DNA from: Candidatus Absconditabacteria bacterium | GTDB lineage: Bacteria > Patescibacteriota > Gracilibacteria > Absconditabacterales > Absconditicoccaceae | Direction of reading: 5' to 3' | Assembly (NCBI GenBank): GCA_028685875.1 | Contig: JAQUDD010000001.1 | Location: 34,209 to 98,208 of the forward strand | DNA length: 64,000 bases | In this document: in pieces, positions 11,188 to 44,752 of the stretch | How positions within the stretch are numbered: position 1 is the stretch's first letter | How the letters are laid out: every line of letters starts with the position of its first letter | Notes under the pieces: generated by a model | Told to the model about the DNA's origin: nothing | The model's input: only the letters and a program-made list of their open reading frames with translations | Databases searched by the model: none | Position numbers and translations under genes: made by a program

Positions 11188-12288
11188 ATGATAGATATTC
11201 AATCAGATGTTTCCCTACTTCCCTATAATACTTTTCAGGTTGACGTGCAGGCGAAGTATTTTGTAGACATTCACCAGGAAGAGGACCTGGAAGAGCTTTT
11301 TGAGACGGGAATCTTTGCAAAGGAAAAGCATCTGATCCTGTGATGAGGAGCAAATGTGTTGTTTACGCAAGATATCAATGGATTAGTGATTAAAGTGAGT
11401 TTGAAGGGGATCGAATGTTTGTCGTGATTGGATGTATCGTCATTAAAATCCCCCCTTCCCCCCTTTCAAAAAGGGGGTAGTAAGGTGTTGGTGCAGGCGA
11501 TGGCGGGAGAAGATTGGTCAGGATTTGTGGAATACTGTAATCGTAAATGACGGGCAGGGATAGAAAATCTGATTGCTATTCCTGGACAGGTGGGAACTGC
11601 GCCGGTATCGAATATTGGTGCCTATGGCATGGAGATTGGGGAGAGGGTTGTTTGGGTGGAGGGATATGATTTGGAGAAAAAAGAGTGGAAAAAGTTTGAT
11701 CATGAAGAGTGTGGGTTTGCTTATCGTGATAGTATTTTTAAGTCTGAACTGAGGGGAAAGTTTTTGATTACGAGGGTAGTGTTTGCGCTTGAGCAACTGA
11801 GTGAGGAATATCTATTCAAGCTTGACTATCCTGATGTGCAAAGAGTGTTGGAGGAGAGAAGTATCAATATTCTGGATTGCCGCGCTTCGCTCGCAATGAC
11901 GCCAAACTCTTTAGAACAAGTGTCGGAGATTATTTCAGAGATTAGGGCAAGTAAGTTGCCAGATCCGAATAAGATTGGGACGGCAGGGAGTTTTTTTGCG
12001 AATCCCATTATCAAAAAATCTGATTTTGATCTTTTGATTCAGAAGTTTCCTGAACTTATCTCTTATCCTCATGGAGACGAAGTGAAATTGTCTGCTGGGC
12101 AATTAATTGATCTGGCAGGACTTAAAGGCTACTCAAATGGAAAGGCGGGTACGAGTTCAAAGCATGCGTTAATTGTGATTAACGAATGAGGAAGCGCGGA
12201 AGATGTATTGGAAGTAGTGGAACATATCCAAATAGTGGTGAAAGAGAAATTTGGAGTTGCATTGAAACCAGAGGTAGTGTATATTTAG
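11188..12288 (+). CDS. murB: UDP-N-acetylenolpyruvoylglucosamine reductase
   Basis: FAD enzyme making UDP-MurNAc for murein. The FAD-binding motif LGGGANVLF has its first Gly encoded by TGA. The characteristic GQVGTAPVSNIGAYGMEIGE, the late catalytic segment GTAGSFFANPII and the MurB C-terminus (SAGQLIDLAGLKGYSNG, HALIVIN) are all present. At 366 aa it is longer than most MurB (300-345). Two palindromic repeats sit in frame and add residues: a family-2 element at 11450-11477 (KSPLPPFQKGG) and a family-1 half at 11873-11902 (LDCRASLAMT). Both lie in loops between conserved motifs. Stop is TAG. Confidence 0.93.
11450..11477. repeat. Family-2 palindrome inside murB
   Basis: A CCCCCCTT...AAGGGGG inverted repeat lies within the murB reading frame and encodes a Pro/Gly-rich insert. 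It belongs to the C-rich palindrome family found inside several other genes here. Confidence 0.85.
11873..11902. repeat. Family-1 repeat fragment inside murB
   Basis: TGGATTGCCGCGCTTCGCTC followed by GCAATGACG matches intergenic family-1 copies, for example at 37521-37550, but here it is translated as part of murB. Confidence 0.85.
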
Positions 12289-13164: not shown

Positions 13165-16100
13165 CTACTTGAGAGCATCCATTCTCTGAAACATCGTGAA
13201 AATATTTCCTCTTAGTTCTTTAGTCTTTGGATCTATATCTATCTGAATAATTCCTGCATTTTTTACAGCAGAGAGGTGTTCTTGATACCAATTAATTTCT
13301 TCTCCTGCATATATATTTCCTCGGAGCAGTCTGGAAAGAATAGTAGCTACTTCTGCTCTCGTTACTACTCCATTTGGTGAGAAGTATTCTTTGGTTACTA
13401 CTCCGTTTGACCAATATCCCATGAGTCCTAACTCACAGGACTGTACTACATATCCTGCAAGTTCTGCATTGGTAGTATTGAGGTCTTTGTACTCAGCACA
13501 AGCTGTCTTTGAACTATCGGGAATCTTCTCCAAATATTTAGTAGCATAGACAGAGATGACTTTTGCAAATTCGGCTCTGGTAATCGCATCATCAAACCTT
13601 GCTGCTTCAAGGCTTGACATCGTAGTGAGTCCCTTTTCATAGGCTCGAGTATACACCCCCTGTCACTCCGTGACATCCCCCTTTGAAAGGGGAAGTACTT
13701 CTTCTGGTGAGCTATCTTCTTCATCAGAACCTCCTTTCTCTCCCTTCGTAAGGGAGATACTGTCACAGTTTGCTTCTGTACAAGGATTCTTTTTTATTAA
13801 GATTGTTCCTCCTCCTCAACTCTGTCCCGTCTTTGATGGAGTTTCTTCATTTTCGTTTCCGTTAGTTGGTCCCTCTTCTCTTGCGGGGATCGTTAAGGTG
13901 AGAGGGTCTGATCGCCACTTTCCTTCTCCGCTATCTGCAACAAGAGTAATTTGATCAGGAACATCTTTTTTGGGTACTTCAAGAGCAAACTTTCCCTCTC
14001 CATCAGCTTGAGTCGTGTAGGTAGTCTCATCTGGTAAAGTTCCCTTTACTTGAGCTCAACTTTCTGTTTCTCCCTGAACAATGGCCATAACAGGATCTTG
14101 AGGCTTATTTACCACTTGTCCCGTAAGAGGAGTTGTACTATCCCATCCTCTTACCACGATGTTAGCATTTGATGCTACGCCAATTCCCGTAGCTCCTGCG
14201 GCTCTATATCCTTTTACTACTCAAGGATTCCATAAAAATGCCCAATCTCAGATACTCTTCACAGAATCTGGAATTACTATTGAAGTCAGTTTGTTATAAT
14301 AAAATGTTCAACCTCCAATACTCATTATTCAAGTTCCTAGGGTTACCGAGGTTAGTTGGTTGGAAGAAAATGCATAGGTCCCAATACTGGTTACCGAATT
14401 CGGGAGCGTTACTGAAATCAGTTGGTTGCTACCAAACGCTTTATGTCAAATGCTCGTTACTCAAGTCCCTAGCGTTATCGATGTCAGTTGATTGTTATAA
14501 AATGCATTATTTCCGATGTTCGTTACTCAGCTTCCTAGCGTTATCGATGTCAGTCTGTTGCCCTGAAATGCACCATCTCCAATACTGGTTACGGAATTTG
14601 GGATCGTTATCGATATCAGTCTATTACTAGCAAATGCGTACCTTCCAATGCTGGTCACTGAATCTGGTATTGTCAGTGAGGTCAGTTCGTTAGCTAAAAA
14701 TACATACTGTCCAATGTTCGTTACTCCTATTCCCAGAATTAGTGAAGTCAGTTCGTTACCAGCAAATGCATCGTTTCAGATACTGGTTACGGAATTTGGG
14801 ATCGTTATTGAGGTCAGTTGGTTGCTTTCAAATGCATACTGTCCGATGCTCGTTACGGAATCTGGAATCGTTACTGCAGTTAATTGTTTGGATGCAAATG
14901 CATAACTCCCTATGCTCGTTACCGGATTCTCTCCTATAGACTCAGGAATCACTACTTCCGCAATACATTCTGGATATACTCCTGCTTTATAGTCCGTAAT
15001 AGTAATCTTCCCAGCAGAGAGATTTGTCACAAAACAGGCTGTAGGTATTCCCTGATTAGCGGAGTCTAATGCTGGAATCGTCAATACAAGAGTGTCGGAT
15101 CATCGCTTCCCTGCGATACCACTATCGGCAACAAGAGTAATTTTGTCGGTAAGTTCTGTCTTTGCTAATTCAAAACTAAAGCTTCCTTCCGCATCTACAG
15201 GTATAGCATAGCTCGTCCCTTCTATTAAAGTTCCTGTTAATTGAGCTCCGATGTTTGTTTGTCCTTGAATAAGTACTTTCATAGGATCTCCCTCTTTGTC
15301 TACTACTGCTCCAGAAAGGGGGGTTGTTGATGTCCAGTCTCTTATAAGGATATTAGCATTTGCTGCTACGGTAATTCCTGTGGTCCCTGTAGCTCTATAT
15401 CCCTTTACTACTTGAGGATTATTTGAAAATGCCTGTTCTCAGATGCTGGTCACTGAATCTGGTATTGTCAGTGAGGTCAGTTGGTTGGCTCTAAATGTAT
15501 AATTTCAGATACTCATGACTCAACTTCCTAGTGTTACCGACGTCAGTTTGTTGGCTTGAAACGCATAACTTCAGATGCTTGTTACAGAACCTGGAATCGT
15601 TACTGAGGTCAGTTGGTTGTAATTAAACGCCCGATCTCCAATAGTCGTTACTCCCGTTCCTAGCGTTAATGAAGTTAGTTTGTTACCTTCAAATGCCGAA
15701 TTTCCGATGCTCGTTACCGAATCTGGAATTGTTACTGAAGTCAATTGGTTTCCAACGAATGCCTGATTTCCAATCCTCGTTACTCAAATCCCTAGCGTTA
15801 CTGAGGTCAATTTGTTGCCTCGAAACACACCATTTCAGATGCTTCAACTCGGGATGGTCACAGAAGTCAGTTGGTTGAACTCAAACGCCTGATCTCCAAT
15901 AGTCGTTACTCCCGTTCCTAGCGTTAGGGAAGTTAGTTGATTGTTTGAAAATGCCTGCTCTCAGATGCTTCAATTTGGGATAGTCACTGAGGTTAGCTCG
16001 TTGTAAGAAAATGCTTGACGTCCGATGCTGGTCACCCCAGTTCCTAGCGTTAATGAAGTCAGTTCGTTGCCTTGAAATGCCCGTTCTCAGATGCTTCAAC

Positions 16101-17277
16101 TCAGGATGGTCACTGAGGTCAATTGGTTGCCTTGAAATGCATAGTCTTGGATGTTTCCGTTCGGAATGGTTATTGAGGTCAGTTGGTCGTTGTAAGAAAA
16201 TGCTTGATATCCGATGCTTGTGACCCCAGTTCCTAGCGTTACTGATGTTAGTTGGTTGCTTGAAAATGCCTGTTCTCCGATGCTTGTGACCCCAGTTCCT
16301 AGCGTTACTGAGGTCAATTCGTTGCCAAGAAATGCAAAATTTCCGATGCTGGTTACCGAATTCGGGATCGTTACCGATGTCAGTTGATTGGTTGCAAAGG
16401 CAGAATTTCCAATACTAGTTACGGGTTTCCCTCCTATGACTCAAGGAATTACCACATCTGTTGTACAGCCCTCATTTCCTATGAGATAATCCGTGATAGT
16501 GATATTTGCTACATATTCCGTCGTTGTAAAACAAGTCGCTGGAGTAGCAGTGACATCGAAAGTTTCTATCATTTCTTCTTCAATTGGAAGGGTTTCTTCC
16601 TCTGCTGGAGGGGTTGTCTCCTCTTCTGTTGGAGGAAGGGTTTCCTCTTCTGTTGGAGGTGTTACTTCCTCTTCTGTTGGAGGGGTTATTTCTTCTTCTG
16701 TTGGAGGTGTTGTTTCCTCTTCTGTTGGAAGGGTGTCTTGAGGGTTCTCATTAGTTTCTTCTTCCGAACCCCCCTCTGTCCCCCCTTCATAAGGGAAGTT
16801 TTCAGTAGGTAGTGCTTCTTCTTTGCTTACTTCTGTTGACTCACTTAGCTCTCCATATTTTGTTATCTCTTCTGTCCAATTCCCTCCGTTTAGATTGTTA
16901 GCGTTCCCTTTCTGAAAATGGGTTACTTCCTCCTGAAGATAAAGCGATACTATTCCCTCTGGATTTGGAAGTTTTACTCTATAGGTTCCCTCTTCAGCAT
17001 AGGTGTGACATATCGGGGTGATTTCTCCCTCATGGAGTTCTACTATCTTGATCGTTTCATTTCCTCGATTTACCGTTACTCTTTTAGTGTCGGGCTCTCC
17101 TTGGAGCGCAAAGCACTTCTTTTGGTTTGCTGTGACTGTTCGCTCTCGTCCTAGAGACACCTCCTCTGGTGCCTTTATTTCTCAAGATTGTGTTTCTTGC
17201 GCTAAAACGAAGACGCTTGTTGATAGGGTACTTACGAACAATACCGCCAGACTCAAGTATACAATACTTTTCTTCAT
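13165..17277 (-). CDS. Giant surface protein A: BspA-type LRR, Ig-like and SLH domains
   Basis: A 1370-aa exported, probably wall-anchored adhesin. It has a signal peptide ([18 protein letters not shown], cleavage near Ala27), an N-terminal beta domain, and a Pro/Thr/Glu linker of PPTEEE repeats (residues ~180-240). Two blocks of ~23-residue leucine-rich repeats follow ([18 protein letters not shown] type, residues ~280-615 and 745-1020), each followed by an Ig-like domain with VKGYR and [11 protein letters not shown] motifs. SLH domains ([30 protein letters not shown]) end the protein. Many Gly are TGA. Family-2 palindromes interrupt it in frame at three places. Paralogues B and C share the layout and upstream region. 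Stop is TAG. Confidence 0.9.
13655..13756. repeat. Two family-2 palindromes inside surface protein A (before SLH)
   Basis: CCCCCTGTCACTCCGTGACA plus CCCCCTTTGAAAGGGG at 13655-13692, and CTCCTTTCTCTCCCTTCGTA then AGGGAG at 13731-13756, lie in the linker between the last Ig-like domain and the SLH domains. They are translated in frame. Confidence 0.82.
16570..16740. repeat. 24-nt tandem repeats encoding the PPTEEE linker (protein A)
   Basis: Near-perfect repeats of TCTTCTGTTGGAGGTGTT and similar units run in register with the frame. Such tracts are prone to copy-number change. Confidence 0.8.
16766..16797. repeat. Family-2 palindrome inside surface protein A (N-terminal)
   Basis: GAACCCCCCTCTGTCCCCCC followed by TTCATAAGGGAAG is translated as part of the acidic linker. 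An identical copy is present in protein B and absent from C. Confidence 0.82.
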
Positions 17278-21962: not shown

Positions 21963-23789
21963 CTACACTACATACTCGATCTTGCTCGCGAGCATGAGAT
22001 CTTCGTCTCAGCAAGCAATAATCTGCTCTAAGCTGATTTCATCCAGTTCGTCGATCTCTGGACAATGAAGGCAGGGACGCACTTCGAAGAGGTAGTTCCC
22101 CTTTTTGTTTGGATGGATGGCGTGGATATAGCCTTCAGTTTTTTGTCCTTTTCTGGAGTGCTGTTTGGCGAGGAGGAGCTGATTGACCTTTCTACGAAGT
22201 GGAAGGAATCTCTCATGAATGAGATGATCGGGAATTTTATTGGGAAGGTGAGAAGAAGGCGCGAGAGGCTCGTCGTGATATTCAAACAGTGCGATATTGT
22301 CAAAATAGTCCTTATCAAGAAAATTATGCAGAAGCTTGACATCCTGCTCCGTCTCGCCGGGAAATCCGATGATGAAATTGGTGCGGATAAAATGCTGAAG
22401 GAAATTCGCTTTGATAAAATCGAGAAACTCGTAAATCGCCTGCTCATCATAAAATCTCCCCATCGATTTGAGCAACGGCGAGGAAATATGCTGGAGCGGG
22501 ATATCGAAGTACGGGATAAATTTTTTGAAGGTAGTCAGCTTTTTGAGATGATTGAGGGTCAAAATATCGGGATAGAGATAGAGCACTCTATAGCGAAAGT
22601 CGCCAGGAATTTGCTCGATCGCCTCGAGAAGTTCCAAGAGCTGTGGCTTTCCGTAGAGGTCCATTCCGTATCTGGTGCTGTCTTGCGCGATGAGGATGAT
22701 TTCTTCCACTCCTTGGGAGAGGAGGTTTTGCACTTCTTGGAGGATGGCTAGAATAGGGAGGGATTGTTGTTTTCCTCTGATCTTTGGGATGATGCAGAAA
22801 GAGCAGCTGTTGTTGCATCCTTCGGCGATTTTGAGATATTCGTATTTTTGGTCTGCGTTAGTGAGTGCTCTTGGATTATCTAATCGCTCGAAATCTGCAA
22901 AAAATTCGCTTTGATATCAGGAGAGAAGCTGAGCAATATTCACGTTTTTGAGATCATTTCGAGAGAGATTGGAGATTTTAGGATGGGAGAGGATGTTTTG
23001 TCGTTTTTGCTGTTCCTCAAGGACTGCTTGTGAAACCAAGGCTTCTTCTTGCAACCCTCCTTTTGAAGGAGGGGGAGGGGAGGTTCGAATATCAGAAATC
23101 GTATTACACACTGCTTCAAAGTTTGTAAGGACTTCCTCGTTAGTAAATCTGATGACCTTAAAGCCTAATGCTTCTAGCGTTTTTGTTCTTCGTATATCAT
23201 GCTTGATTGCCTTATCTTCGTAATGGCTATCCCCATCTATTTCAATAATCAGCTGAAGTTTATCACAAAAAAAATCTACTATATATTGATCAATCGGCTT
23301 TTGTCTCTGGAATTTATATTCACACTCGGAAAGAAAATGATATCGCAGATTCTTCTCTGCTTGTGTCATATTGTTTCTGAGTTCTCTTGCTAGAGGCTTC
23401 AAGTTGGGATTATAATCGATATAGTGTTTACGAACCCCCTCGGTCCCCCTTCATAAGGGGGATGTATCTGGTTGTTTCTTCCCCATTAACAGAGGAGATT
23501 GAAAATATTGCAAGGCACAACCAATAATGCAGACATATTTCCCCTTTTTGAGGAGTTTGTCTATCGTCGAAAACATCTCTTCACGACCAGAAGAAATAAA
23601 TCCGCAAGTGTTGAGAAAGACCAGCTCGACTTCTGGCTCGTAAGGATCTGTAGAATAGATGATATTACCACGAGAAGTTGATGTTGGTTCTTCACCCGGG
23701 TGTCCTGTAAGTAATCTCCCGAGGAGAAGCTGACTATCTACAAGGTTTTTGGTGCATCAGAGATTGATGAGAGAGATGATCGTTTGCAT
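21963..23789 (-). CDS. rimO: Ribosomal protein S12 methylthiotransferase with an inserted DUF559 nuclease domain
   Basis: Radical SAM enzyme that methylthiolates Asp of S12. The N-terminal domain has NLGCTKNLVDSQLLLG (Gly = TGA) and FLNTCGFISSGREE. The radical SAM motif is EGCNNSCSFCIIPKIRG, then YLYPD, IPLQHISS and GFPGET, and a TRAM-like end. Length is 608 aa against about 440 usual. The excess is residues ~109-247: a complete DUF559 (Vsr-like) domain from PLARELRNNMTQAEK through YIVDFFCDKLQLIIEIDGDSH to FKVIRFTNEEVL, bracketed by family-2 palindromes. The frame stays open throughout. Insertion falls in the linker after GCALQYF, before YEYLKIAEGC. Stop is TAG. Confidence 0.93.
23045..23465 (-). 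mobile_element. In-frame DUF559 cassette flanked by palindromes within rimO
   Basis: The segment consists of a family-2 palindrome (23431-23463), a DUF559 endonuclease domain (~23415-23090) and a second family-2 palindrome (23051-23086), all in the rimO frame. Standalone DUF559 proteins are about 120 aa, so the domain is whole. The putative catalytic residues of the PD-(D/E)XK-like fold (YIVDFF, LIIEIDGD) are kept. Calling it mobile is inference from position, completeness and flanking repeats. Confidence 0.6.
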
Positions 23790-24548: not shown

Positions 24549-27500
24549 TTATTTCTCCATCAACTCATTCCTCCATTTTTCTCTCTCCTGCTTATAATAG
24601 TTAAGTAAGGAAGCAGGCAATGCTTCGACTACTTTGGAAGTCAAATAACTTTCCGCATTTTGTTTATATTGCAAAGGATAGGAGGAAGCGACATTCGTCA
24701 AAGGAACTTCTTTCCCTTTTCGTATCATGGAATACTCCCCCGCTTTAATGTCCTTTTTCCCTTGGGAATAGAAGTCAAAATAGTCTCTTACTTCTGAATT
24801 ATAATACAAAAGTGAATAGTCTTTTTTGAGGTAATTTTGCAGTTGAGCGATATAATTATTTTGGAAGGAAAGAAGCTTTTGGTTGGTAAGCGTGGTAGAA
24901 TTCGGGATCTTTTTACAGCCAAAGAGGACTTTGTTGTAAGAAATACACAGTTGATCGTCTTTTTTAACGAGGGTAATCTTTTTCACTACAGCTAGTTCTT
25001 CGTCTGGAATGTCTTTAACCTGCTGATTATCAGAAGTAAATCTCACTCCATCAGCTGCTTTTCCATAGCAGAAACTGTCTATGGGGTCACTTCCTTTCAT
25101 TAGTGTCACACAGGAAGCAGTATTGGGAAAAGAGAAACTTCCCTTGATCGTGATTTCTTGGTTGGGAAGGAGAATACCATTCAGTTTTTTCTTGGTTTTG
25201 TTATTGATCAAAAGATAAAAATCTGGCGAAAGATTTAATGTCTCGTCATTGCGAGACCCGCTAAAGCGGGTCGTGGCAATCCACTCAACATCTTGTCTTT
25301 CTCATTCATTTTCTGGATTGCTTCACTCCGTTCGCAATGACAAATTTGGTGTCCAGAAAAGGGTGATTTCCTCTTTATCCTTGTCGGCTCAAGAAGGATT
25401 AGGAAGGAGAGAGGTAATTTTTATGTTGGGAAGGGAAGAATCTGATAGGTTTTTTACTGTTCCAGAATGCACAATTTCTTCTCGCTCTGCTCACGGATTA
25501 TAACAAGAGGTGTCGAAGATATAGTCTTGGTATTTCAGAGAAATACAGGTAGCTTTACTATTGGGTAGTGCAAAGTCTCCTTTTAGTTGAAGAGGAGAAG
25601 TAAGCGGTAGCAAGCCGAAAGAAGACAGATTTTTGTTTTTTGTAGTTCCTGTTGCATATTCCTCTCGTGGGAAGATCGTGAGCTTAAAATTGTCTGAGAA
25701 ATCAATTTCAGATAGCCCTGGAAGTGCAGAAGCATCAATGGAAAGAAAAAGACTTTCGTTGTCCTTATCAGAACCTTCCGGATCATAATCAATGCTGGTA
25801 ATGGTAATATCAAGAAGTGCATAGTCTACTCCTCGTGCTTCTGGCACCTCATCAATGCTTACTCCACAGGTAGCAGAAGACCAAAGTCATTTCGCAGAAG
25901 ATTTAGCAGAGGACTCAGCAGATTGAAAATCAGACTGTTTTTGGTAGGCAGATTTGTAAGTATATTCTTTTGCATATCCATCAAGAAGCATCTTCTCATT
26001 TACTAGAACCTCATCTAGGTAGACATAAGCAAGTAGTCTTCCATAGCTATCCACCTGTTGCTGTGTTGCATCGTATTCTAGGCGGACATACTGATTTTTG
26101 ATGAGCTCTGTGAGATATTTTTTAGATTCTTGACCAAAACATTCAGTAGTACGATATCTCGTAGTAGTTGATTCTGGGGCATCTACTCAGAGCAGTCTAA
26201 CGGATTGAAGCGTTCCATCCTCTTTACGGAAACGGAAGGTATCTCCATCAAGGACAGAAAAGACTTTTACTGTTCAGGATTGCACTTCTACTTTTGGGGT
26301 GTTAGGATTATAGAGATAGGTGGAAAAAATAGTGTCATTGTAGAAGAGAGAAACAAGCACCTCACTACCCTCTTTGGTGGAATTAGGGAAGCCGAAGGTG
26401 CCTTGGAAGGTTTTCGTTTCTCCTGCTAAGAGAGTTCAGCTCAACTTTTTATTGGTAGTGTTGATTTTGAGTTTGAGTTGAGAAAGATCGAGATCATGGG
26501 AAGAAAGATTTTGAATCGTGATCGTTTCATTTCCTGCATCTGCACCTGGAGGATCATAGAGAATGTCGGTAATTTTGAGTTGATAGAGCAAAGGATTGAA
26601 GGTTAGTTGTGGGGTTTCTTCTTTTTCAGAAGAGGTTTTCTCTGGAGATCGACAATAGCTATCAATAATAATTGCCCCCGAATAGAGATCTACACATCCT
26701 CCTGTATCTACAAATCAGAAGGTTTTAGTAAAGGTATCAATAGAATTTGCTGAAAGTTCTCCCTCAATGTACTTTTTGGTGGAAGAAGTCGAAGTTTTGA
26801 GATATCGCACTCTTTTAGAGAAATCAATACCGTAGGGAAGGAAAGATTGAAGCGTAATTGATTCTGGAGAGAGATATTCTAATCAGACGATTTTCACTAA
26901 CTGCCCTCCTTCGTAAGGAGGGAGAGGAGAGGTTCAATCAGTAGTGTTTTCTGAACCCCCTCAGTCCCCCTGTCCGACTTCGTCGAGACCTTCGTCATAA
27001 GGAGGATCATCATCTTTCATCTCAATTTTTTCAACAGTTCACGAGTTATTTGAAGGTGCTGATCAGCACAACTCCTCTTTGGTTGTACAGGAATAAGATC
27101 CTCATCCACCTCAACCAACATATTTCACTGTCTCAACTACTTTTATGTTATAGGTTGATGTGGGTGAAAAATAACGAAGTACTTCTTGTCCAAAGCCTGG
27201 CGAAAAGTCGTCAACAAAGTCTATATTATCTCAACAATTCCTCTGAAGTCAATGAAAGTATGAGGATTTTTCAAAACTTCCTGACACTACATGTACCATG
27301 TCTAAAAGTTGGCTACTTTGTCCATATATTCCATATATTTCCAGCTCTCCACTGGGGTTATGTAAGTCGAAGTCTGGATGATAGACAAGGGTTAGCAGTC
27401 AGGCTTCAGACAATTCTCCGACTTCTTTCGTCAGGATCAGCCTTGTGTTTTTTTCTAAAAGTGATGCATCATAAGACTCCGTCTCCTGTGTCAAATCTAT

Positions 27501-28895
27501 AGTAATAGACTGAGCAAGCAATGATCCAGAAATCTGGAGGAACTCAAACTCCTCTTCGATGTCTTCATGGATGAAAAACTCAAGATAAGGATCATATCTT
27601 TCTCCTCCTCGGAAGACTTCGGTGAGGGTAATTGTATCTGAGAGAGCGTCCTCACAAAGCTCTGGCAAATCGGAGTCTTCAGGTGTGGTATATTTAGGAA
27701 TACCATAGTCTACATATCCATCATCGTCCGTCTCAACAATTAATCCTGGATTTACTTTGTATCCTCTTGGATTATTTGTTGCGTGTTCCCAAGCATTCGT
27801 GATGATAGTTTTATTAGGAAGAAGAAGTTTCTGGAAAGAGGTTTTACTATCATCTCGCTGTTTTACCCGACTCTCTTGTGCTGAAAAGCTGTCAATTAAT
27901 GCATCGTTTCCTCGGAGTTCAACAAGGAGTGCCTTATCGTCAGGAATGGAAAAGAGAGGAAAATGAGCATCAGTGTTTTTGACAATTCAGAGGTTTTCAG
28001 GAATCTTTAAAGGATTGAGAGCATTTGCTAGAATGAGGTATCCCTTTGCAGGAATGAATACTTCTTCGTAAAAAAAGGAAGAAATCTCTTCATAGATTCC
28101 GCCGGAAAGGGAAAAGGAACCTTGAAAATCTTGATCCCCACTATTGAAAATTTCAATTCGCTCTTCTTGCAGGTGTTCCTCATGATCTTCTTCACTACAT
28201 CATCGGTCTTCAATATCTTCTTCTGAGCAGGTGAAGACATAATCATCATAGTAGACTTCTGAGATAAGTAAGTGTTCAGGACTAGAAGAGAAGGGAGGAG
28301 GCGTTGGTGTTTGTTTATCTTGGCATTGCTGGTTAAGGTTTGTGATATTTTGTAAAGTTGTATTCCCAATACCACTCACCTTCGTGAGATCGGAAAGTGT
28401 AGTGAAAGAATCTGTTTGGAGAAAATTGAGGATATTATTTGCTGTAGAAGATCAAACTCCACAAAGTTTTTGCAATTGAGAGGAGCTTGATGTATTGAGG
28501 TCTATCGTTTCACAGGCATCTTCAAAAGAAAGCTGATCATCAATCTCACATTTTTTTGTTTTGGAAACAAATACCATAAGAGGAAGAAGTTCACTATTTG
28601 TCGTCAATACTTCTGAGAAGAGGAATATTCATTCAGAAAGATTTTCGTCTATATTTTTATTTTCTTCATCAAGGAGAACTGCGTTTTCTCCTCGTTCTGA
28701 ATCTTCTGGAAGAAGTGAAGAAGCTTCTTCTAGAAGTGGAGGAGTGATTTCCAAATCTCCACTTTCTTGGCTTATTTCAAGGGGAGGTGGGGATTGAAGA
28801 GAGAGTTCTTCTGCGAGTACGAGGAAGAGATTCCCTGACAGTGCATAAAATCCCCATCACAGAAGCGTGATGAGGCTGAGTGTCTTTTTCATCAT
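24549..28895 (-). CDS. Exported multidomain protein: HhH, lamin-tail repeats and thermonuclease
   Basis: 1448 aa. N-terminal signal peptide (MMKKTLSLITLLGGFYALSG); a ComEA-like helix-hairpin-helix pair (LNTSSSSQLQKLCGVGSSTA, LTKVSGIGNTTL, residues ~120-190); a lamin-tail domain (LLISEVYYDDY, PAKGYLILANA); and further lamin-tail-like units. A staphylococcal-nuclease domain lies at residues ~873-1012 (KVFSVLDGDTFRFR, VRLLGVDAPES, VDSYGRLLAYVY, LLDGYAKEY), with the expected Arg and Glu residues present. More lamin-tail units follow (YDPEGSDKDNESL, LLPNPSGADKDKEEI). About 30 TGA are Gly. A family-1 repeat and two family-2 palindromes are translated within it. Probably degrades or binds extracellular nucleic acid. 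Stop is TAA. Confidence 0.88.
25242..25343. repeat. Family-1 REP-like palindrome inside the nuclease gene
   Basis: A full palindrome (GTCATTGCGAGACCCGCTAA to CTTCACTCCGTTCGCAATGAC) lies in frame. It splits a lamin-tail unit: DKDKEEITLFW before it, LNLSPDFYLLINN after it. About 35 extra residues result. Confidence 0.85.
26902..27005. repeat. Two family-2 palindromes inside the nuclease gene
   Basis: CTGCCCTCCTTCGTAAGGAG/GGAG at 26902-26933 and CTGAACCCCCTCAGTCCCCC to CGTCATAAGGAGG at 26952-27005 are translated as Gly/Pro/acidic inserts with several TGA. Confidence 0.82.
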
Positions 28896-30317: not shown

Positions 30318-33300
30318 TTATCTATTTTCTACTCTCTTAAGCATAATGTAGATATTTCCTCTCAGTTCTGGGGTGCTTGGTGCAATATCTGTTTGGATAA
30401 TCTGCTCACTCTTTAACGCTGAAAGGTGTCCTTGATACCGATTTTCTTCATTACTTCCAAGGTATGTGTTTCCTCGAAGCAGTCTAGAAAGGATCGTTCC
30501 TACTTCTGCTCTCGTGATTGTATTATTTGGTGAAAAGTATTCTTTTGGTGTTATTCCGTTTGACCAATATCCCATGAGTCCTAGCTGACAGGATTGGATC
30601 ACATATCCTGCAAGTTCTGCATTAGTAGTAGTGAGGTCTTTGAATTCAGCACAAGTTGTCTTTGAGCTATCGGGGATCTTCTCCATGTATGTGCTAGCGT
30701 AGACAGAGATGACTTTTGCAACTTCTGCTCTCGTGATTGCATCACCAAACCTTGCAGCTTCAAAGCTTGGCGTGGTGGTGAGTCCCTTTTCAAAGGCTCG
30801 ATCGTAAACCCCCTGTCACTCCGTGACATCCCCCTTCTCAGGGGGAAATACTTCTTCTAGTGAGCTATGTTCTTCATCCGAACCCCTTTCGTAAGGGGGA
30901 TGTTTGTCACAGTTTTCTTCTGTACAAGGATTCTTCTTTACTAGGATTGCTCCTCATCCACTCCATTTCTTTGATTCACTTCCTGTTTCGGATTCACTTG
31001 CTGATTCCAATGCGGGAATCGTTAAAGTGAGGGGATCGGATCGCCATTTTCCTTCCCCACTATCTGCAACAAGAGTAATCCCTTGAGGAGTTTCTTTTTT
31101 TTCTAATTCAAGAATAAATTTTCCTGCTTCGTCTACAGGAATACTATAGATGGTCCCATCTACTAAGGTTCCCGTCAATTGAGCTCAGCTTTCTGTTTCT
31201 CCTTGAACAATAGCTATGACAGGATCCTGAGGTTTATTTACCACTTGTCCTGTGAGAGGAGTGGTTACTGTCCAGTTCCTCACTACGATGTCAGCATGAG
31301 TATGTACTGTAATTCCTACCTCTCCATTTTCTCTATATCCTTTTACTCTTTGGGGATTGAGGGAAAATGCATAACTTCCGATGCTCGTTACCGAATTCGG
31401 GAGCGTTACTGAGGTCAATTGATTCCTAGAAAATACCGAACTTCCGATGCTCGTTACTCAGTTTCCTAGCGTCACCGAAGTCAGTTGGTTGTTGGCGAAT
31501 GCATCGTTTCCGATGCTTCAATTCGGGATCGTTACTGAAGTTAATTTGTTATCATAAAATGCATAATTTCCGATATTGGTTACTCAGGTTCCTAGGGTTA
31601 CTGAGGTCAGCTGATTACTAGAAAACGCATGATTTCAAATGCTAGTTACTCAGGTTCCTAATGTTACCGAGGTCAGTTGATTGCCTTGAAATGCATACTC
31701 TCCGATACTGGTTACCGAATTCGGGATCGTCATCGATATTAATTGGTTGCCTCCATGAAAGACCATAAGACCTTGAAACGCACGATTTCCAATACTGGTT
31801 ACTCAAGTTCCTAATGTTACCGAGGTCAGTTGATTGCTAGAAAACGCACCCTCTCAGATGTTTCAATTTAGGATCGTTACGGAACTCAGTTGGTTATTAT
31901 GAAATGCATAACTCCCAATGCTCGTTACCGAATTCGGGATCGTTACTGAGGTCAATTGATTGTTTCTAAATGCAGAATTTCCGATACTGGTTATAGGATT
32001 TCCTGCTATAAATTCAGGAATTACCACTTCCGAAGCACACTCTGGATATATTCCTGCTTTATAGTCCGTAATCGTAATCTTTCCACTAGATTCTGTAGTG
32101 GCAAAACAAGCTGCTGGGATATTCTGATTAGAGGGATCCAATGCTGAAATACTCAATACAAGAGGGTCGGATCGTCGCTTCCCTACGATACCGCTATCTG
32201 CCACAAGAGCAATTTTGTCAGTGAGTTCTGTCTTTGCTATTTCCAAACTGAAATTTCCCTCTGCATTCACAGGAATAGTATAGGTAGTCCCGTCTATTAC
32301 CTTTCCTGTCAGCTGAGCTCAGATTTCTGTTTGTCCTTGGATAATTACTTTCGTAGGATCTCCTTCTTTGTCTACTACTTCTCCAGAAAGGGAAGTCATT
32401 AACGTCCGGTCTCTTACCAGGATATTAGCATTTGCTGGGATAGTATCCATCCCTCCCGTTCCTGCAGCTCTATACCCCTTCACTACTTGAGGATTATTTG
32501 CAAATGCAGAATTTTCGATACTGGTTACCGAATTCGGGAGCGTTACTGAGGACAATTGATTGTTTCTAAATGCAGAATTTCCGATGCTCGTTACTCCCGT
32601 TCCTAGCGTTACCGAGGTCAGTTGATTGCCTCGAAATGCAGCACTTCCGATGCTCGTTACTGAATCTGGAATCGTCACTGAAGTTAGTTGGTTGCCATCA
32701 AATACTGAGTCTCCGATGCTGGTTACTCAGGTTCCTAGCGTTACCGAGGTCAGTTGATTGCCTTGAAATGCAGCACTTCCGATACTCGTTACCGAATTCG
32801 GTATGGTCACAGAGGTCAGTTGATTGCCTTGAAATGCAGCACTTCCGATGCTCGTTACTCAATCCGCGATCGTCACCGAGGTTATCAGATTTCCTAGAAA
32901 TGCAATCTCTCATACGCTCGTTACTCAAGCTCCTAATGTTACCGAAGTTAATTGATTGTTATAAAACGCCTGCAATCAGATGCTTCAACTCGGGATCGTC
33001 ACCGAGGTTAATCAATTGTTACTAAATGCCTGCATTCCGATGCTGGTTACTCCCGTTCCTAGCGTTACCAACGTCAGTTGGTTGTCTGTAAATGCAGAAC
33101 TCCCGATACTAGTTACTGAATCCGGGATTGTTACCGAGGTCAGTTGATTTCCTGCAAACGCTCTCTGTCCAATGTTCGTTACAGAATTTGGGATGGTCAC
33201 AGAGGTCAGTTGGCTGTTATCAAACGCAGAATTTCCGATGCTGATTACTCCAGTTCCTAGCCTTACTGAGCTTAGTTGATTACTAGTAAATGCACTATTT

Positions 33301-34985
33301 TCGATACTGGTTACCGAATTCGGGAGTGTTACCGAAGTCAGTTGCCTACCCGCAAATGCATACTGTCCAATGCTGGTTACAGGATTTCCTCCTATAACTT
33401 CAGAAATCACGATTTCTGTACTATTACACTCTGGGTACATTCCTGTTCTATAGTTAGTGATAGTAATCTCCCCATTAGATTCTGTGGTGTCAAAACAAGC
33501 TGCTGGCATCTCCTGATTGTTTGGATCTTTTGCAAGGGTTGGAATAGTCAATATAAGGGGATTTGATCGCCATTTCCCTTCACTCTCTGCAATGAGGGTA
33601 ATCTTTTCTGTAACATCTTTTTTTTCGAATTCAATGCTGAAACCTCCTTCTGGATCTATTAGGATGCTCTGTGCCGTTCCATCTACCAAGGTTCCTGTCA
33701 ATTGAGCTGCAGGATCCGTTTGTCCTTGAATAAGCACTTTTGTAGAATCCTCTTCTTGATCTACTATTTCCCCGAAAAGAGAGGTTGTTAATAGATAGTC
33801 TCTTATTAGAATATTAGCATTTGTTGCTACGCTAATCCCTCCCGTTCCTGCAGCTCTGTATCCCTTCACTACTTGAATATTATCTATAAATGCGTACGCT
33901 TCGATGCTGGTCACGGAATCCGGGATCGTCAACGACCTCAATTGATTGTTAGCAAATGCATAATTTCCGATGCTGGTTACTCAGGTTCCTAGCATTACTG
34001 AGGTCAGTTGGTTGTAATAAAACGCATAGTCTCCAATGCTCGTTACCGAATTCGGGAGCGTTACTGAGGTCAGTTGGTTGTAATAAAACGCATAATTTCC
34101 TATGCTCGTTACGGGTTTTCCTCCTATATTTTCGGGAATAATTAGTTCTCTCGTACACTGTTCTCACCGCTCTATTGCATAATCCGTGATCGTGATATTT
34201 CCCTCTGATTCCGTCGTCGAAAAACAGCCCTCTGGAGTGGCAGTGAGGTCTAAAGGTTCTATCACTGCTTCTTCCAATAACCCTGCTTCCTCCTCTATCG
34301 GAAGTGTTTCTTCTTCCGTTGGAAGTGTTTCTTCCTCTGTTGGAGCTGTTTCTTCCTCTGTTGGAGGTGTTTTTTCCTCTTCTGCTGGAGGAGTTGTTTC
34401 TTCCTCTGTTGGAGGTGTTGTTTCCTCTTCTGTTGGAAGGGTGTCTTGAGGATTCTCATTAGTTTCTTCTTCCGAACCCCCCTCTGTCCCCCCTTCATAA
34501 GGGAAGTTTTCAGTAGGTAGTGCTTCTTCTTTGCTTACTTCTGTTGACTCACTTAGCTCTCCATAGTTCGTTATTTCTTCTCTCCGATTTCCTTCTTGAA
34601 GGGATTTAGCGTTCCCTTTCTGAAAGTGAGTTATTCACTCTGGGAGATACAAGGTTTCGATTCCCTCGGGATTTGGAAGGCTTACTTTATAGTTCCCTCA
34701 TTCGGTATAAGTAGTACATATCTGTGTGAGTCTTCCCTTATTGAGTTCTACTATCTTGATCATCTCGTCTCATCGATTTACCGTTACTCTTTTAGTGTCG
34801 GGCTCTCCTTTGACCGCAAAGCACTTCTTTTGGTTTGCTGTGACTGTTCGCTCTCGTCCTAGAGACACCTCCTCTGGTGCCTTTATTTCTCAAGCTTGCG
34901 TTTCTTTCGCTAAAACAAAGATGCTTGTTGATAGGGTACTTACAAACAATACTGCCAAACTCAGGTACATAATACTTTTCTTCAT
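30318..34985 (-). CDS. Giant surface protein B: BspA-type LRR, Ig-like and SLH domains
   Basis: 1555-aa paralogue of protein A. It has a signal peptide ([18 protein letters not shown]), an N-terminal domain with [20 protein letters not shown], a PPTEEE-type linker (residues ~178-235), three LRR blocks separated by three Ig-like domains ([30 protein letters not shown]), and C-terminal SLH domains (residues ~1435-1555, [20 protein letters not shown]). TGA-Gly codons occur at intervals in the repeats. In-frame family-2 palindromes lie before the SLH and in the acidic linker. Unlike C, the frame is open from start to stop. Stop is TAA. Confidence 0.9.
30808..30900. repeat. Two family-2 palindromes inside surface protein B (before SLH)
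   Basis: AACCCCCTGTCACTCCGTGA...CCCCCTTCTCAGGGGG and GAACCCCTTTCGTAAGGGGG are in frame, at the same domain boundary as in protein A. Confidence 0.82.
34474..34504. repeat. Family-2 palindrome inside surface protein B (N-terminal)
   Basis: Same sequence and place as 16766-16797 in protein A, so inserted before the duplication or spread by gene conversion. Confidence 0.8.
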
Positions 34986-37679: not shown

Positions 37680-38423
37680 CTAACTAGTCTCTAACCCAAC
37701 TGAATAGAGTTGAAGCATAGGATATTCCTTATGATCAGATTTAGAATAGAGTGTATCGCCACAAATAGGGTATCCGATCGCTGCAAGGTGTACCCTAATC
37801 TGATGACGAATTCCCTTTTGAATTTCTACCAATACAATACTGGTTCTCTTCGATGTATTATAGTCATATTCAAGGAGTTTTGTAGTCAGTTGATGTTCTC
37901 TTCACTTAGCTTTATTTCTATCTGAATCTGTTCTTATTACTACCATACGATCAGGGGTAAATTTGTGATGCATGATAGGGTAAGAAATATCATATACCCC
38001 CTTTTGTACTGCGCCCCATCAGAACTGCGGGAAAGGGGAAGAGGGGGGATTTTCTGCAGTATCGAACCCCCCGCCTTCGGCTCCCCCCTTCATAAGGGGG
38101 GTCACGTCTCCATACACCTCTGCAAGATAATATTTATGTACAAAGAGATTGCCTTGTAATTCTTTGAATTGCTTTTTTACTTGAGGATTCTTTGCAAAAT
38201 AGAGGAGTCCTGAGGTGTCGTTATCTAACCTATTGAGCAAACCATACTCTTCTGCCGGAGAGAAGAATGAAGAAAGAGAAAGGAATATTTCTTGGATTTG
38301 GGGATTTCTTTGCTCCTGAACCAAAAGATCAAGGAAAGAAAACTCTTTACCAAATGAAGAGGGAATTCCTGCTGGCTTCCGAAAATAATAACAGTATTGA
38401 TCCTGATAATAAGTGAAATGCAT
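37680..38423 (-). CDS. RluA-family pseudouridine synthase
   Basis: 247 aa. Modifies uridines in rRNA or tRNA. The catalytic Asp motif is LLNRLDNDTSGLLYFAK (usual HRLDxxTSG), then KYYLAEVYG, and the C-terminal motifs KGIRHQIRVHLAAIGYPICGDTLY. It contains an in-frame family-2 insert, roughly TPLMKGGAEGGGFDTAENPP and about 15 more residues, between the KYYLAEVYG strand and VQKGVYDI. TGA is Gly at PQFGWGAVQ. It is shorter than RluD and has no S4 domain. Target unknown. Stop is TAG. Confidence 0.88.
38030..38103. repeat. Family-2 palindromes inside the RluA-type gene
   Basis: GAACCCCCCGCCTTCGGCTC followed by CCCCCTTCATAAGGGGGG, plus a G-rich partner at 38030-38047, are translated in frame. Confidence 0.84.
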
Positions 38424-39759: not shown

Positions 39760-42700
39760 TTAGTTGTTTGAAAGTCTAGTAAGCATGATAAACACATTTC
39801 CTCTAAGTTCTGGGGTACTTGGTGCGATATCTGTTTGAATAATCTGTTCACTCTTTAAGGCGGAAAGATGTCCTTGATACCAATTTTCTTCATTACTTCC
39901 AAGGTATTTGGTTCCTCGAAGGAGCCTGGAAAGAATAGTGGCTACTTCTGCCCTCGTTACTACTCCATTGGGTGAAAAGTATTCTTTTGTTACTACTCCG
40001 TTTGACCAATATCCCATGAGTCCTAACTCACATGCTTGTACTACATATCCTGCAAGTTCTGCATTAGTAGTATTGAGATCTTTGTACTCTCCACATTGTG
40101 TTTTAGTTGTGTCTGGGGTTTTGTTGTGGAACTTTGTTGCATAGAGTGTAATAATTTTTGCTAGCTCTGCTCTCGTAATGGTATGATCCATCCTTGCTTC
40201 TTCGAGGCTTGGCATCGTAGTGAGGCCCTTTTCATAGGCTCGAATATAGAGTTCTTGCATTTCTCTCTCTGAAGGAGAGCTGGTGGTATCATCTTCCATT
40301 ACCGTAGTTTCTGGATCTTTCGCTTCCGCTCAAGATGGCGGAATCTCAGCACAGGTTCCCTCTCAGCAAGCATCCTGTTTTATAGCTGTTCCTCCTCCAC
40401 CTCAGCTCGTTCACGTATTTGACGGGATTTCTTCATTTCAGTCTCCGTTACTTGCTTCCTCTCCTAGTGCAGGGATGGTTAAGGTAAGGGGATCTGATCG
40501 CCACTTCTCTGGAGTTCCACTATCAGCTATCAACATAATGGGTTCTGGAGTCGCTTTTTTGGGAACTTCAATACTAAACTTTCCCTCAGTATCCGCAGAG
40601 ATAGTATACTTCGTATCATCTGATAGGGTTCCCATTACTAAGGCTAAAGCATCTGTTTCTCATTCAACAACCGCTAATTCTGACTGCTGTATTTTACTGG
40701 ATACCTTTCCTGTAAGAGGAGTTATAGAAGTAAGGGGTAAGTCTCTGATTTCTATATTTGCTGATTGAGATATGGTAATTCCTTCCGTTCCTGCGGCTCT
40801 GTATCCCTTTACTACTCATATATTGGCAGCGAATGCTAAGTCATCTATTCTGACAACTGAATCAGGGATTATTACAGAGACTAATTGATTTTTTTCAAAT
40901 GCAGATTTTTCAATCTCTTCAATTCAACTTTCTAACGTTACAGAAGTTAGAAGATTTGATTTGAAAGCTCCTCGCCCAATAGAAGTTAGGGATTTGGGTA
41001 TTGTTACTCAAGTAAGTTGATTGTTAGCAAAAACCGTTCTTCCGAGGGCTCATATTCAGGTTCCTAACACTAATGAAGTTAATTTATTATTTCTAAAAGC
41101 ATCCATTCCTAAATATCATAGTGAATTTGGCAGTTTTAAGGATATTATTTGATTATTTTTAAACGCTGCCATTCCAATATTTTCAACTCAGCTTCCTATC
41201 GCTACTGAGTTCAATTTATTGTTTGTAAATGCCCGATCATTAATAGTTTTTACTGAATCAGGGATTATTACTCAAGTTAATTGATTATATCAAATATCCT
41301 GAATTTCGATTACTGAATCAGGAATTGTTACAGCAACCAACCCTTTCCTGCTCAATCCCTGAATATTCGTAACCTGCTTTCCTTTTATTGTAGAGGGAAT
41401 GTTTACGATTGTGGGGCACTCTGGATATATTCTTATTCTATAATTCGTTATAGCTCCTTCATCATATATACTTGTACCCATTACAAAACACTCTTCTGGA
41501 ATAGATAAATCACCACTAGCATTTTCCAACACCGGAATTCATAATGTTATAATATCTGACTGCCATTTTCCTTCTTCGCCAACATCTGCAACAAGCCTGA
41601 TTTTTTCTGTTACTTGTCTCTTTGCTAGTTCAAAACTAAAACTTCCTGTTTCATCCGTAGGAATACTATACACTGTGCCATCTAAAAGAATCCCTGTTAA
41701 TTGTGCTCAACTTTCTGTCGTCCCTTGAATGATTACTTTTGTGGGATCTTCTGGGTTTTCTATAATTTCTCCAGAAAGTTGTGTCTTTAGTATCCAATCT
41801 CTCACTAAAATATTTGCATTTTCTCCTATGGTAAGTCATGTAATCCCTAGTGGCCTATAAGCTTTTATAGTTCCTATATTATTGTCAAATGCATAATCTC
41901 CGATTATTGTCACTGAATCAGGAAGTTTGAGTGATATTAATTGATTGAAGGAAAATGCTCCGTATCAAATACTTTTAACTCAACTTCCTAGTGTTACTGA
42001 CGTCAGTTGATTTGGAGAAAATGCTCGCTGTCCAATCGTATTCACTGAACCCGGAATTGTCACCGAGGTTAGCCAGTTGTCTCTAAATGCAGAATCTCCA
42101 ATCTCTTGTAGTGCATTAGGGAGGATTAGTGAGACCAACTGATTATGTGCAAAGGCGGCATATCCAATACTTTTAAGTCAACTTCCTCGTGTTACTGACG
42201 TCAGCTGATTAGTGACAAATGCAAGGTGTCCAATAGTCTCTACTGAATTTGGAATTTCTACTGAAGTAAGCTGATTATCAGCAAATGCATTATCTCCGAT
42301 AGTTTGTAGTGAATCTGAAATAGTTACTGAGGTTAACTGATTATATGCAAAAGAATCTCCTCCAATAGTAATTACTGAGTTGGGGATTTCCACTGATGTC
42401 AATAGATTATTAGAGAATGCAGCAGTTCCAATAGTCTGTACTGAATCAGGAATTATCACTGAAGTAAGCTGATTATTAGAAAAAACGGAATCACTAATAC
42501 TTGTTACTGAGTTGGGAATGGTCACCGAAGTTAGACCGTTATTTGTAAATGCATTCTCTCCAATAGTGGTTACTGGAAATCCTTCTATATTAGAGGGAAT
42601 AACAACATTCGTTGCTGTACACTCTGAATACACCCCTATCATATAATCTGTAATCATAACCTCTCCACCGGAAAGTACCGTAACAAAACATGCTTTCGGA

Positions 42701-44752
42701 ATAGATTGATCGTTGGGATCCCTTTCTAGAGAGAGAATAAATCATGTTATAGTATTCGACCACCGTTTTCCTTCATTTTGAGCAAGTAGCGTTATAATAT
42801 CTGAAACATCTTTTTTGTTTATTTCAAAACTAAAGTCTCCATTTTCGTCTACAAATATGGAGTTAGTAATCCCATCTAAGAGGGCTCCTGTTAGTTGTGC
42901 TCAGCTTTCTGTCTTTCCTTGAACGATCGCTTTTGTTGAATCTTCTGGATTTTCTATAACTTCTCCTGTGAGCGATGTTATTTCTGTCCAATTTCTGAGG
43001 AGAATATTAGCGTTGCTTGCTACGAAAATTCCTTCCGTTCCTGCTGCCCTATACCCCTTAACTATTCATGGATTATTAGCAAATGCAGAATTTTCAATAG
43101 TAATTACTGAATCGGGGATATTTACTGATGTCAGCTGATTTATGCTAAAAGCGTTTTGCTTGATAGTGTTTACTGAATTTGGAATTTCTACTGAGATTAA
43201 TTTATTATTACTAAAAGTATAGGGCTCAATCGTTATTATTCAGCTTCCTATTATCACGGACGTAAGTTGGTTCTGAAAAAATACAGACCATCCCATGCTA
43301 GTTACTGAATTTGGAATTTCTACTGAAGTCAGCTGATTGTTAGAAAATGCCTGTTGTTTAATGGTTTTTATTGAATTGGGGATGATTACTGAAGTCAGCT
43401 GATTGTTAGAAAATGACATTTCACCAAGCGTATCTAGTGAAGTAGGAAGTGTTACTGATGTCAGTTTGTTAGTAGAAAATGCCCTATCTCAGATACTTGT
43501 TACAGAATTTGGAATAGTCACCGAAGTCAACTGATTATTAGAAAACACAGAACTTCAAATGGTAGTTATTCAAGTTCCTAGTATCAGTGAAGTCAACTGA
43601 TTAGAGGCAAATGCAGACTGTCCCATAGTGGTTACTGAATTTGGAATCGTCACCGAAGTCAACTGATTAGACGCGAATGCTCGCTGTCCAATACTTATCA
43701 CTGAATTTGGAATTTCTACTGAGGTTAATTGATTATATTGAAATGCCTGATTTCAAATGCTCGTTACGGAATTTGGGATTGTCACTGAGGTCAGTTTATT
43801 GCTATAAAATGCATAACTTCCGATGCTGGTTACCGAATTCGGGATTACTACTCAGGTCAACTGATTAACAGCAAATGCAGAGCTCCCGATCGTTGTTACT
43901 GAATCAGGAATGATTAGTGATGTTAGCAGGTTATTATAAAATGCACTACCCCCAATACTTATTACTGAATTTGGAATTTCTACTGAAGTTAATTGATTAT
44001 CATAAAGCGCAGAAACTCAAATACTCGTTACTGGTTTTTCTCCTATGGTTGAAGGGATTACTACAACCGTTGTACAACCCTCATTTCCTACGAGATAATC
44101 TGTGATAGTGATATTTCCCCCTGATTCCGTCGTGGTAAAACAGCTCTCTGGAGTAGGTATTCCCATGGTCTGCATCATTTCTTCCTCTTCGGTTGGAGGT
44201 GTTTCTTCCTCTTCTGCTGGAGGTGTTTCTTCCTCTTCTGCTGGAGGTGTTTCTTCCTCTTCGGTTGAGAGTGGTTCCTCCTCTGTTGGAACTGTTTCTT
44301 CCTCGACTATTTTTGTTGATTCACTTAGCTCTCCATAGTTCGTTATTTCTTCTGTCCAATTCCCTCCATTTAGATTGTTAGCGTTCCCTTTCTGAAAGTG
44401 AGTTACTTCCTCTTGAAGATAAAGCGATACTATTCCCTCGGGGTTTAGAAGTTTTATTTTATAGGTTCCCTCTTCGGCATAGGTGTGACATATCGGGGTG
44501 ATTTCTCCCTCATGGAGTTCAACTATTTTTATTGTCTCATCGGTTTACGGTTACTCTTTTAGTGTCGGGCTCTCCTTTGACCGCAAAGCATTTCTTTTGA
44601 TTTGCTGTGGCTATTCGCTCTCGTACTAGAGACACCTCCTCTGGTGCCTTTATTTCTCAAGCTTGCGTTTCTTTCGCTAAAACAAAGATGCTTGTTGATA
44701 GGGTACTTACAAACAATACTGCCAAACTCAGGTACATAATACTTTTCTTCAT
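39760..44752 (-). pseudogene. Giant surface protein C (LRR/Ig-like/SLH), frameshifted near the N-terminus
   Basis: Same layout as A and B: signal peptide, [20 protein letters not shown] domain, TPPAEEEE linker, three LRR blocks with Ig-like domains, and C-terminal SLH ([20 protein letters not shown]). The start (44752) and the main body are in different frames. Near 44535-44541 five bases are missing relative to B, and the start frame ends at a TAA at 44459-44461 after 97 aa. Downstream the other frame gives [13 protein letters not shown], homologous to A, and stays open to TAA 39760. Full expression needs a restored frame; it may be a pseudogene, a phase-OFF state or an assembly error. Confidence 0.85.
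44176..44270. repeat. 24-nt tandem repeats encoding the TPPAEEEE linker (protein C)
   Basis: Three to four nearly perfect 24-nt units (GGAGGTGTTTCTTCCTCTTC plus TGCT), in frame, are a likely variable-number tract. Comparable tracts occur at 16570-16740 and about 34300-34440. Confidence 0.82.

Follow-up and report, generated by a model that had tools for sequence, protein, structure and literature searches.

An insert that codes for an enzyme is commonly assumed to require splicing, as introns and inteins do, if it lies in an essential gene. Palindromic repeats have also been described within coding sequences: REPs were reported inside genes, and CGTC REPs without a dedicated transposase (PMC3733652), and, as cited in the same article, the Rickettsia palindromic elements (RPEs) are palindromic units lying in frame in the genes of functional proteins. 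As to the DUF559 family, a genome paper files one of its genes under the EDxHD homing-endonuclease family (PMC9403480), and an earlier article noted a DUF559 fusion to a SPOUT methyltransferase (PMC1829167). A further member is VsrA of Caulobacter, which acts where cytosine is methylated and to which the SOS response seen when the solitary cytosine methylase is missing is due (PMC12907096). The family can thus act on DNA in vivo. Here we compare with these systems a palindrome-bracketed DUF559 unit found in rimO of a Candidatus Absconditabacteria bacterium.

A DUF559 unit in the rimO reading frame

The first-pass annotation of the window (the whole stretch of 64,000 nt that was analysed) had described a complete DUF559 domain inserted in frame within rimO with palindromes on both sides, and this anatomy is borne out by a Pfam match, two hairpins and an open unit of 408 nt, arranged as follows:

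21963..23789, minus strand: rimO-family host gene, 608 aa with TGA read as glycine
23055..23462, minus strand: hairpin-to-hairpin unit, 408 nt or 136 codons, in the rimO frame
23444..23462, no strand: palindrome on the upstream (rimO 5') side, TCCCCCTTCATAAGGGGGA
23431..23443, no strand: inner tag adjoining the upstream hairpin, CCGAGGGGGTTCG in the rimO direction, common to the short units of the genome
23094..23402, minus strand: DUF559 (PF04480) nuclease domain with the conserved D43, E54, D56 and H60
23074..23087, no strand: inner tag adjoining the downstream hairpin, CGAACCTCCCCTCC in the rimO direction
23055..23073, no strand: palindrome on the downstream (rimO 3') side, CCCTCCTTTTGAAGGAGGG

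Under code 25 the rimO frame is open for 608 aa, with four TGA codons, and NCBIfam identifies it as a RimO/MiaB-family methylthiotransferase, the only RimO-type gene found in this genome (estimated as 99% complete). Pfam orders the protein as UPF0004 (aa 7-101), DUF559 (130-232) and Radical_SAM (321-490); the insert belongs to DUF559 by a match of E 4e-31 and 107.6 bits, against a curated cut-off of 20.6, which covers positions 3-105 of the 109 in the PF04480 profile. The unit, divisible by three between its outer hairpin ends, is free of stops under code 25 and has a single one, a TGA, if read with code 11, and its nuclease gene is placed between GGGGGTTCG and CGAACC. No in-frame ATG, GTG, TTG or CTG occurs in it between the left hairpin and the DUF559 domain; having no start codon of its own there, the rimO copy would hardly be made except within RimO. 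A model of the whole chimera predicts the nuclease domain with a pLDDT of about 96, and since its overall pTM is 0.44 we claim no arrangement of the domains. Also in the window, a 1448-aa ORF (24549-28895) combines ComEA-type helix-hairpin-helix, lamin-tail and thermonuclease (SNase) domains.

The nearest structure to the model of the DUF559 domain alone (pLDDT 92) is 3hrl, a gonococcal DUF559 protein (Z 13.9); the predicted fold also resembles Vsr (Z about 10) and, at a Z of 7.3 that may mean only a common arrangement, TnsA. The homing endonuclease I-Bth0305I (3r3p) is related to the domain in both fold and sequence (VIA Z 11.6, HMM E 5e-5), a match that makes this a catalytic domain of the Vsr/EDxHD fold. 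An assignment as a defence nuclease was considered and rejected, the PADLOC matches being only weak and remote (mREase_II 5e-7, HEase 1e-3).

Empty rimO sites, for which a comparison of relatives had been proposed in the earlier annotation, were found: at the insertion site the RimO linker has 50-107 residues in 29 relatives (one of them truncated), all lacking the insert, versus 227 here. The linker, which joins the UPF0004 domain to the radical-SAM domain, is a place where insertions are tolerated. G021 has CCCCCTTGATAAAGGGGGGTCTGGGGGGATTT there, and G027, G004 and G003 have a different, partly degenerate palindromic repeat with the form TGTCATTCTGA...AGAATGACA. Another RimO site, in the TRAM domain, is occupied by a DUF559 unit in G038 and by a short palindromic insert in G021. 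As separate observations, another in-frame palindrome type occupies the same loops in leuS of G046 (L193, GTCATTGCGAGCGAAGC...) and in the three RimO linkers just named (L165, L168, L174), and miaB of the present genome (L013, G000:C9) has a short palindromic insert at the linker matching the RimO insertion site.

The strongest parallel to the rimO case is leuS of the same genome, which lies outside the window (L002/L033, G000:C11:16180-19491). It carries four palindromic inserts, all in frame, of which one is a second unit with a complete DUF559 nuclease and three are short hairpin pairs; the leuS pieces found in this genome all belong to one gene, its sole leuS copy, and the leuS site is empty in G047. 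The earlier annotation had spoken of survival inside essential genes. rimO is not essential in E. coli, and the wording had to be corrected for it; the same arrangement is seen, however, in the sole leuS of this genome.

Palindromes and DUF559 loci in this and other genomes

With up to 3 mismatches, the pattern CCCCCTTCATAAGGGGGA occurs 7 times in the window versus 0.02 expected, and a related 17-mer is matched 37 times on the forward and 34 times on the reverse strand of the genome, with some overlap between the two sets, where its reversed control is matched 0 times and once. Besides the rimO unit, the window holds these members of the family:

11459..11477, no strand: single hairpin, in frame in murB (11188-12288, plus)
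13677..13757, no strand: short palindrome pair, in frame in a BspA-type leucine-rich-repeat ORF (13165-17277, minus)
16781-16798, 30830-30900 and 34489-34506: further copies in similar BspA-type ORFs
38084..38101, no strand: short element, in frame in an RluA-family pseudouridine synthase ORF (37680-38423, minus)

Giant BspA-type leucine-rich-repeat proteins are encoded at 13165-17277, 30318-34985 and 39760-44178 of the window, the first two with in-frame palindromes of the family. Nearly all of the 34 genomic sites examined, gathered from pattern searches and fetched stretches, fall within long open frames; open frames run long under code 25, so not each of them is a proven gene. Family scans identified as carriers RlmD, PrmC, Elp3, ArgRS, GatB, an RluA-family protein, MetRS, D-aminoacyl-tRNA deacylase, MiaB, a CCA-adding-type enzyme and MurB. 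Some short units consist of a hairpin, a G-rich tag ending in TTCG, the inverted tag and a second hairpin, the tags abutting as GGGTTCGAACCC (the finder was crude and listed five pairs). The short, nuclease-free units and the long ones with DUF559 have end sequences in common, and on account of these shared ends both look like one family. Transcription terminators were rejected as an explanation for the hairpins, which stand on both sides and within reading frames, with no T-run after those inspected.

PF04480 was found in 54 of 99 relatives, this genome counted, most of which are metagenome assemblies whose strain purity is not assured; 91 DUF559 loci were fetched from them and translated. 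In at least 20 of the 91 the domain lies in frame in a conserved gene: mnmA (4), leuS (3), rimO (2), elp3 (2), lepA (2, in one genome), and once each tgt, fmt, murC, prmC, tsaC, ribE and miaA. NCBIfam backs these host identities, with rimO, murC and prmC under the equivalog cut-offs, as interrupted or divergent genes can score. The miaA case is N-terminal with an uncertain start and the other 19 are internal; 17 of the 19 hosts are translation or tRNA/ribosome-modification genes, a bias with a binomial probability of 6e-9 at an assumed share of 25%, which is not a proper gene-content null. Three internal cases need no TGA recoding (elp3 in G054, tsaC in G097, ribE in G064). A methionine lies at most 45 residues upstream of the domain in 60 of the 66 copies classed as free versus 11 of the 20 in genes. 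L232 (G035:C65) is probably a further in-gene copy, judging from its sequence: its DUF559 lies within what looks like a SufB frame, truncated where the contig stops, and PLxKG-type peptides recur in series to either side of it. The two lepA copies of G047 (L058 and L218) are 87% alike, each with a DUF559 unit at the same place, and possibly represent two strains in one assembly. Outside these genomes, a hairpin-flanked DUF559 is fused in frame upstream of RseP, whose start is uncertain, on an Omnitrophota contig (L132, JAHJUB010000097.1).

Units lying in different genes can be closely related: leuS-G043 and rimO-G038 are 82% identical over 512 nt, lepA-G047 and fmt-G019 78% over 486 nt, and rimO-G000 and murC-G001 68% over 376 nt. 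In the first two pairs the homology runs as far as the repeats. For leuS-G043 and rimO-G038 it stops at TTACCCCACCC... and ...GGGTGAGGTAA, which form an inverted repeat lying outside the hairpins, and beyond them the flanking host sequences are unrelated. In a tree of 86 DUF559 domains the in-gene label changes 8 times versus 18.2 times when shuffled, with none of 500 shuffles as low, in an alignment of 108 columns where near-copies from related genomes inflate the clustering and L232 is labelled free though probably in-gene. Clades made up of in-gene copies alone join different genes, and one clade of 30 rows is wholly free. The dN/dS ratios are 0.05-0.33 between in-gene copies and 0.02-0.14 between free copies, both constrained; on these ratios the in-gene nucleases are under purifying selection.

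Similar hairpins accompany DUF559 well beyond this lineage. Around 74 loci from other phyla (cyanobacteria, Clostridia, Bacteroidota, Chloroflexota and others), 65% of the 250-nt flanks contain a hairpin with pyrimidine/purine arms of at least 8 bp, versus 1.5% of control tiles (odds ratio 120). Among the 20 in-gene copies of the relatives, 14 have at least one flanking hairpin and 9 have them on both sides (control tiles, 0.8%), and at the other 6 no hairpin of this strict kind was found. The motif CCCCYYY-N(2-6)-RRRGGGG is matched three times or more in 42 of the 54 genomes with DUF559 versus 3 of the 45 without (odds ratio 49), and ten times or more in 21 versus 2, counts that include in part the elements' own flanks and statistics that ignore phylogeny. 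This genome has no match to PF01797, the Y1 transposase, and among genomes without Y1 the three-match contrast is kept (odds ratio 50); palindromes driven by RAYTs were rejected on both grounds. In the literature naming DUF559 (titles, abstracts and selected passages, mainly of open-access articles) no link between the family and palindromes was found.

Proposed mode of life and alternative explanations

We consider that the insert is a mobile element with a DUF559 nuclease, bracketed by REP-like palindromes and unspliced, some of whose lineages are specialised for life inside genes, and give this reading a probability of roughly 0.7. The idea put forward in the first-pass annotation, of a mobile unit that survives by staying translatable, is strengthened by the empty rimO and leuS alleles, the related units in different genes, the in-gene clustering and the purifying selection, alongside the anatomy of the unit and its association with palindromes, all of them features of the sequences. 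From the comparison we infer that the element moves; we further infer that its nuclease is what drives the copying, with the palindromes as its substrate, and that the chimera stays unprocessed. The element would consist of a gene for a DUF559 nuclease (Vsr/EDxHD-type PD-(D/E)XK) with an inverted pair of REP-like palindromes around it, each a tag plus a hairpin, and the short pairs of the genome with similar ends would be its non-autonomous relatives. The nuclease would break or nick DNA at palindromes, tags or target loops, the hairpins or tags serving as recognition or annealing sites, and repair would probably fill the break with a copy of the unit, which may or may not include the nuclease. 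In-gene units would be stop-free, a multiple of three in length, set in loops or linkers and able to lose their own start codon; being stop-free and in frame, we propose, they would let the nuclease be translated, with no splicing step, as a domain within the host protein. Insertions would be retained only if they fall in frame in a tolerant loop, and those in indispensable genes may last because the cell cannot lose the insert by deleting the gene around it.

That ordinary repeats of the REP/REPIN or RPE type are moved by host repair or another transposase, with DUF559 carried along, is an unlikely alternative: palindromic repeats unrelated to DUF559 sit in the same rimO and leuS loops, and nuclease-free intragenic REPs and RPEs have been published (PMC3733652). 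Against this reading stand the co-occurrence of DUF559 and palindromes across genomes, also without Y1 transposases, flanking hairpins at 65% versus 1.5% of tiles across phyla, and a nuclease under purifying selection inside genes. This selection would equally suit a domain of benefit to the host, a Vsr-like repair or methylation-surveillance enzyme kept fused to housekeeping proteins, for which the Vsr fold, the cytosine-methylation context of VsrA (PMC12907096) and the DUF559-SPOUT fusion noted earlier (PMC1829167) can be cited; we hold it to be quite improbable, given its sporadic presence (54 of 99 relatives), the many unrelated host genes, the close relatives in different genes and the bracketing palindromes.

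Two further readings seem to us barely credible. An insert in conserved genes with a fold related to that of an intron-encoded homing endonuclease might be removed by RNA or protein splicing as an unrecognised intron or intein, but, as the earlier annotation had held, no intein is visible, neither Pfam nor NCBIfam finding such a domain; Rfam finds no intron, its one match being a chance sRNA hit (E 0.28, far under the gathering score), and the rimO unit is stop-free and in frame, as are the short pairs in the same loops. Palindromes repeated in the genome could also confuse assembly and produce a chimera at 23045-23465, against which stand the exactly kept frame and the same arrangement in at least 14 other assemblies.

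On the preferred reading of an unspliced nuclease element, translation alone seems to be enough for a nuclease gene to persist within genes and to pass from one to another. Where RAYTs are absent, DUF559 is a candidate for the enzyme behind REP-like palindromes. A role that can be tested is also proposed for a widespread family whose function Pfam still gives as unknown. A wider proposal, that small Vsr/EDxHD nucleases with REP-like palindromes form a class of transposable elements in many phyla, driving the short pairs and with some lineages resident in core genes as unspliced domains translated within essential proteins, appears to us evenly poised; a separate class would be justified if the nuclease were shown to move units.

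Comparison with known systems

With the REPtron/REPIN system (RAYT = TnpA_REP) the locus shares an enzyme gene between inverted REP-like tagged hairpins and dispersed short, non-autonomous palindrome pairs with similar ends, and it is because these nuclease-free pairs share its end sequences that the element resembles a REP/REPIN system with another enzyme. It differs in that this enzyme is a PD-(D/E)XK nuclease and not a Y1 HUH protein (PF01797), in that the tags are GGGGGTTCG or GGGTGAGGTAA in the sequences inspected instead of GTAG/CGTC, and in that the enzyme-coding unit itself resides in frame within genes. RPEs resemble it as in-frame palindromic units within genes of functional proteins; their description as short and without an enzyme gene fits the short units of this genome but not the rimO unit, which codes for a complete nuclease domain, one kept by purifying selection, and which has relatives that lack the nuclease.

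The likeness to a homing endonuclease drawn in the earlier annotation stands as regards sequence and fold, which are those of I-Bth0305I, and as regards the occupation of conserved genes with empty alleles. It does not extend to classical allele homing, since no single target gene is shared by the units: close relatives lie in different genes, which argues against one fixed homing target. No model matches an intron or intein carrier here, and no DNA-binding region was found beyond the catalytic domain. Vsr shares the predicted fold (Z about 10) and VsrA of Caulobacter the DUF559 family (PMC12907096); both differ in being described as free-standing and acting with cytosine methylation.

The rimO element stands outside the RAYT class, because it has neither a Y1 enzyme nor a GTAG/CGTC tag, outside the RPEs, because it has a gene, and outside introns and inteins. 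By analogy, it would work like a REPtron/REPIN with another enzyme, like a nuclease-carrying RPE and like a homing endonuclease that has no splicing element to carry it.
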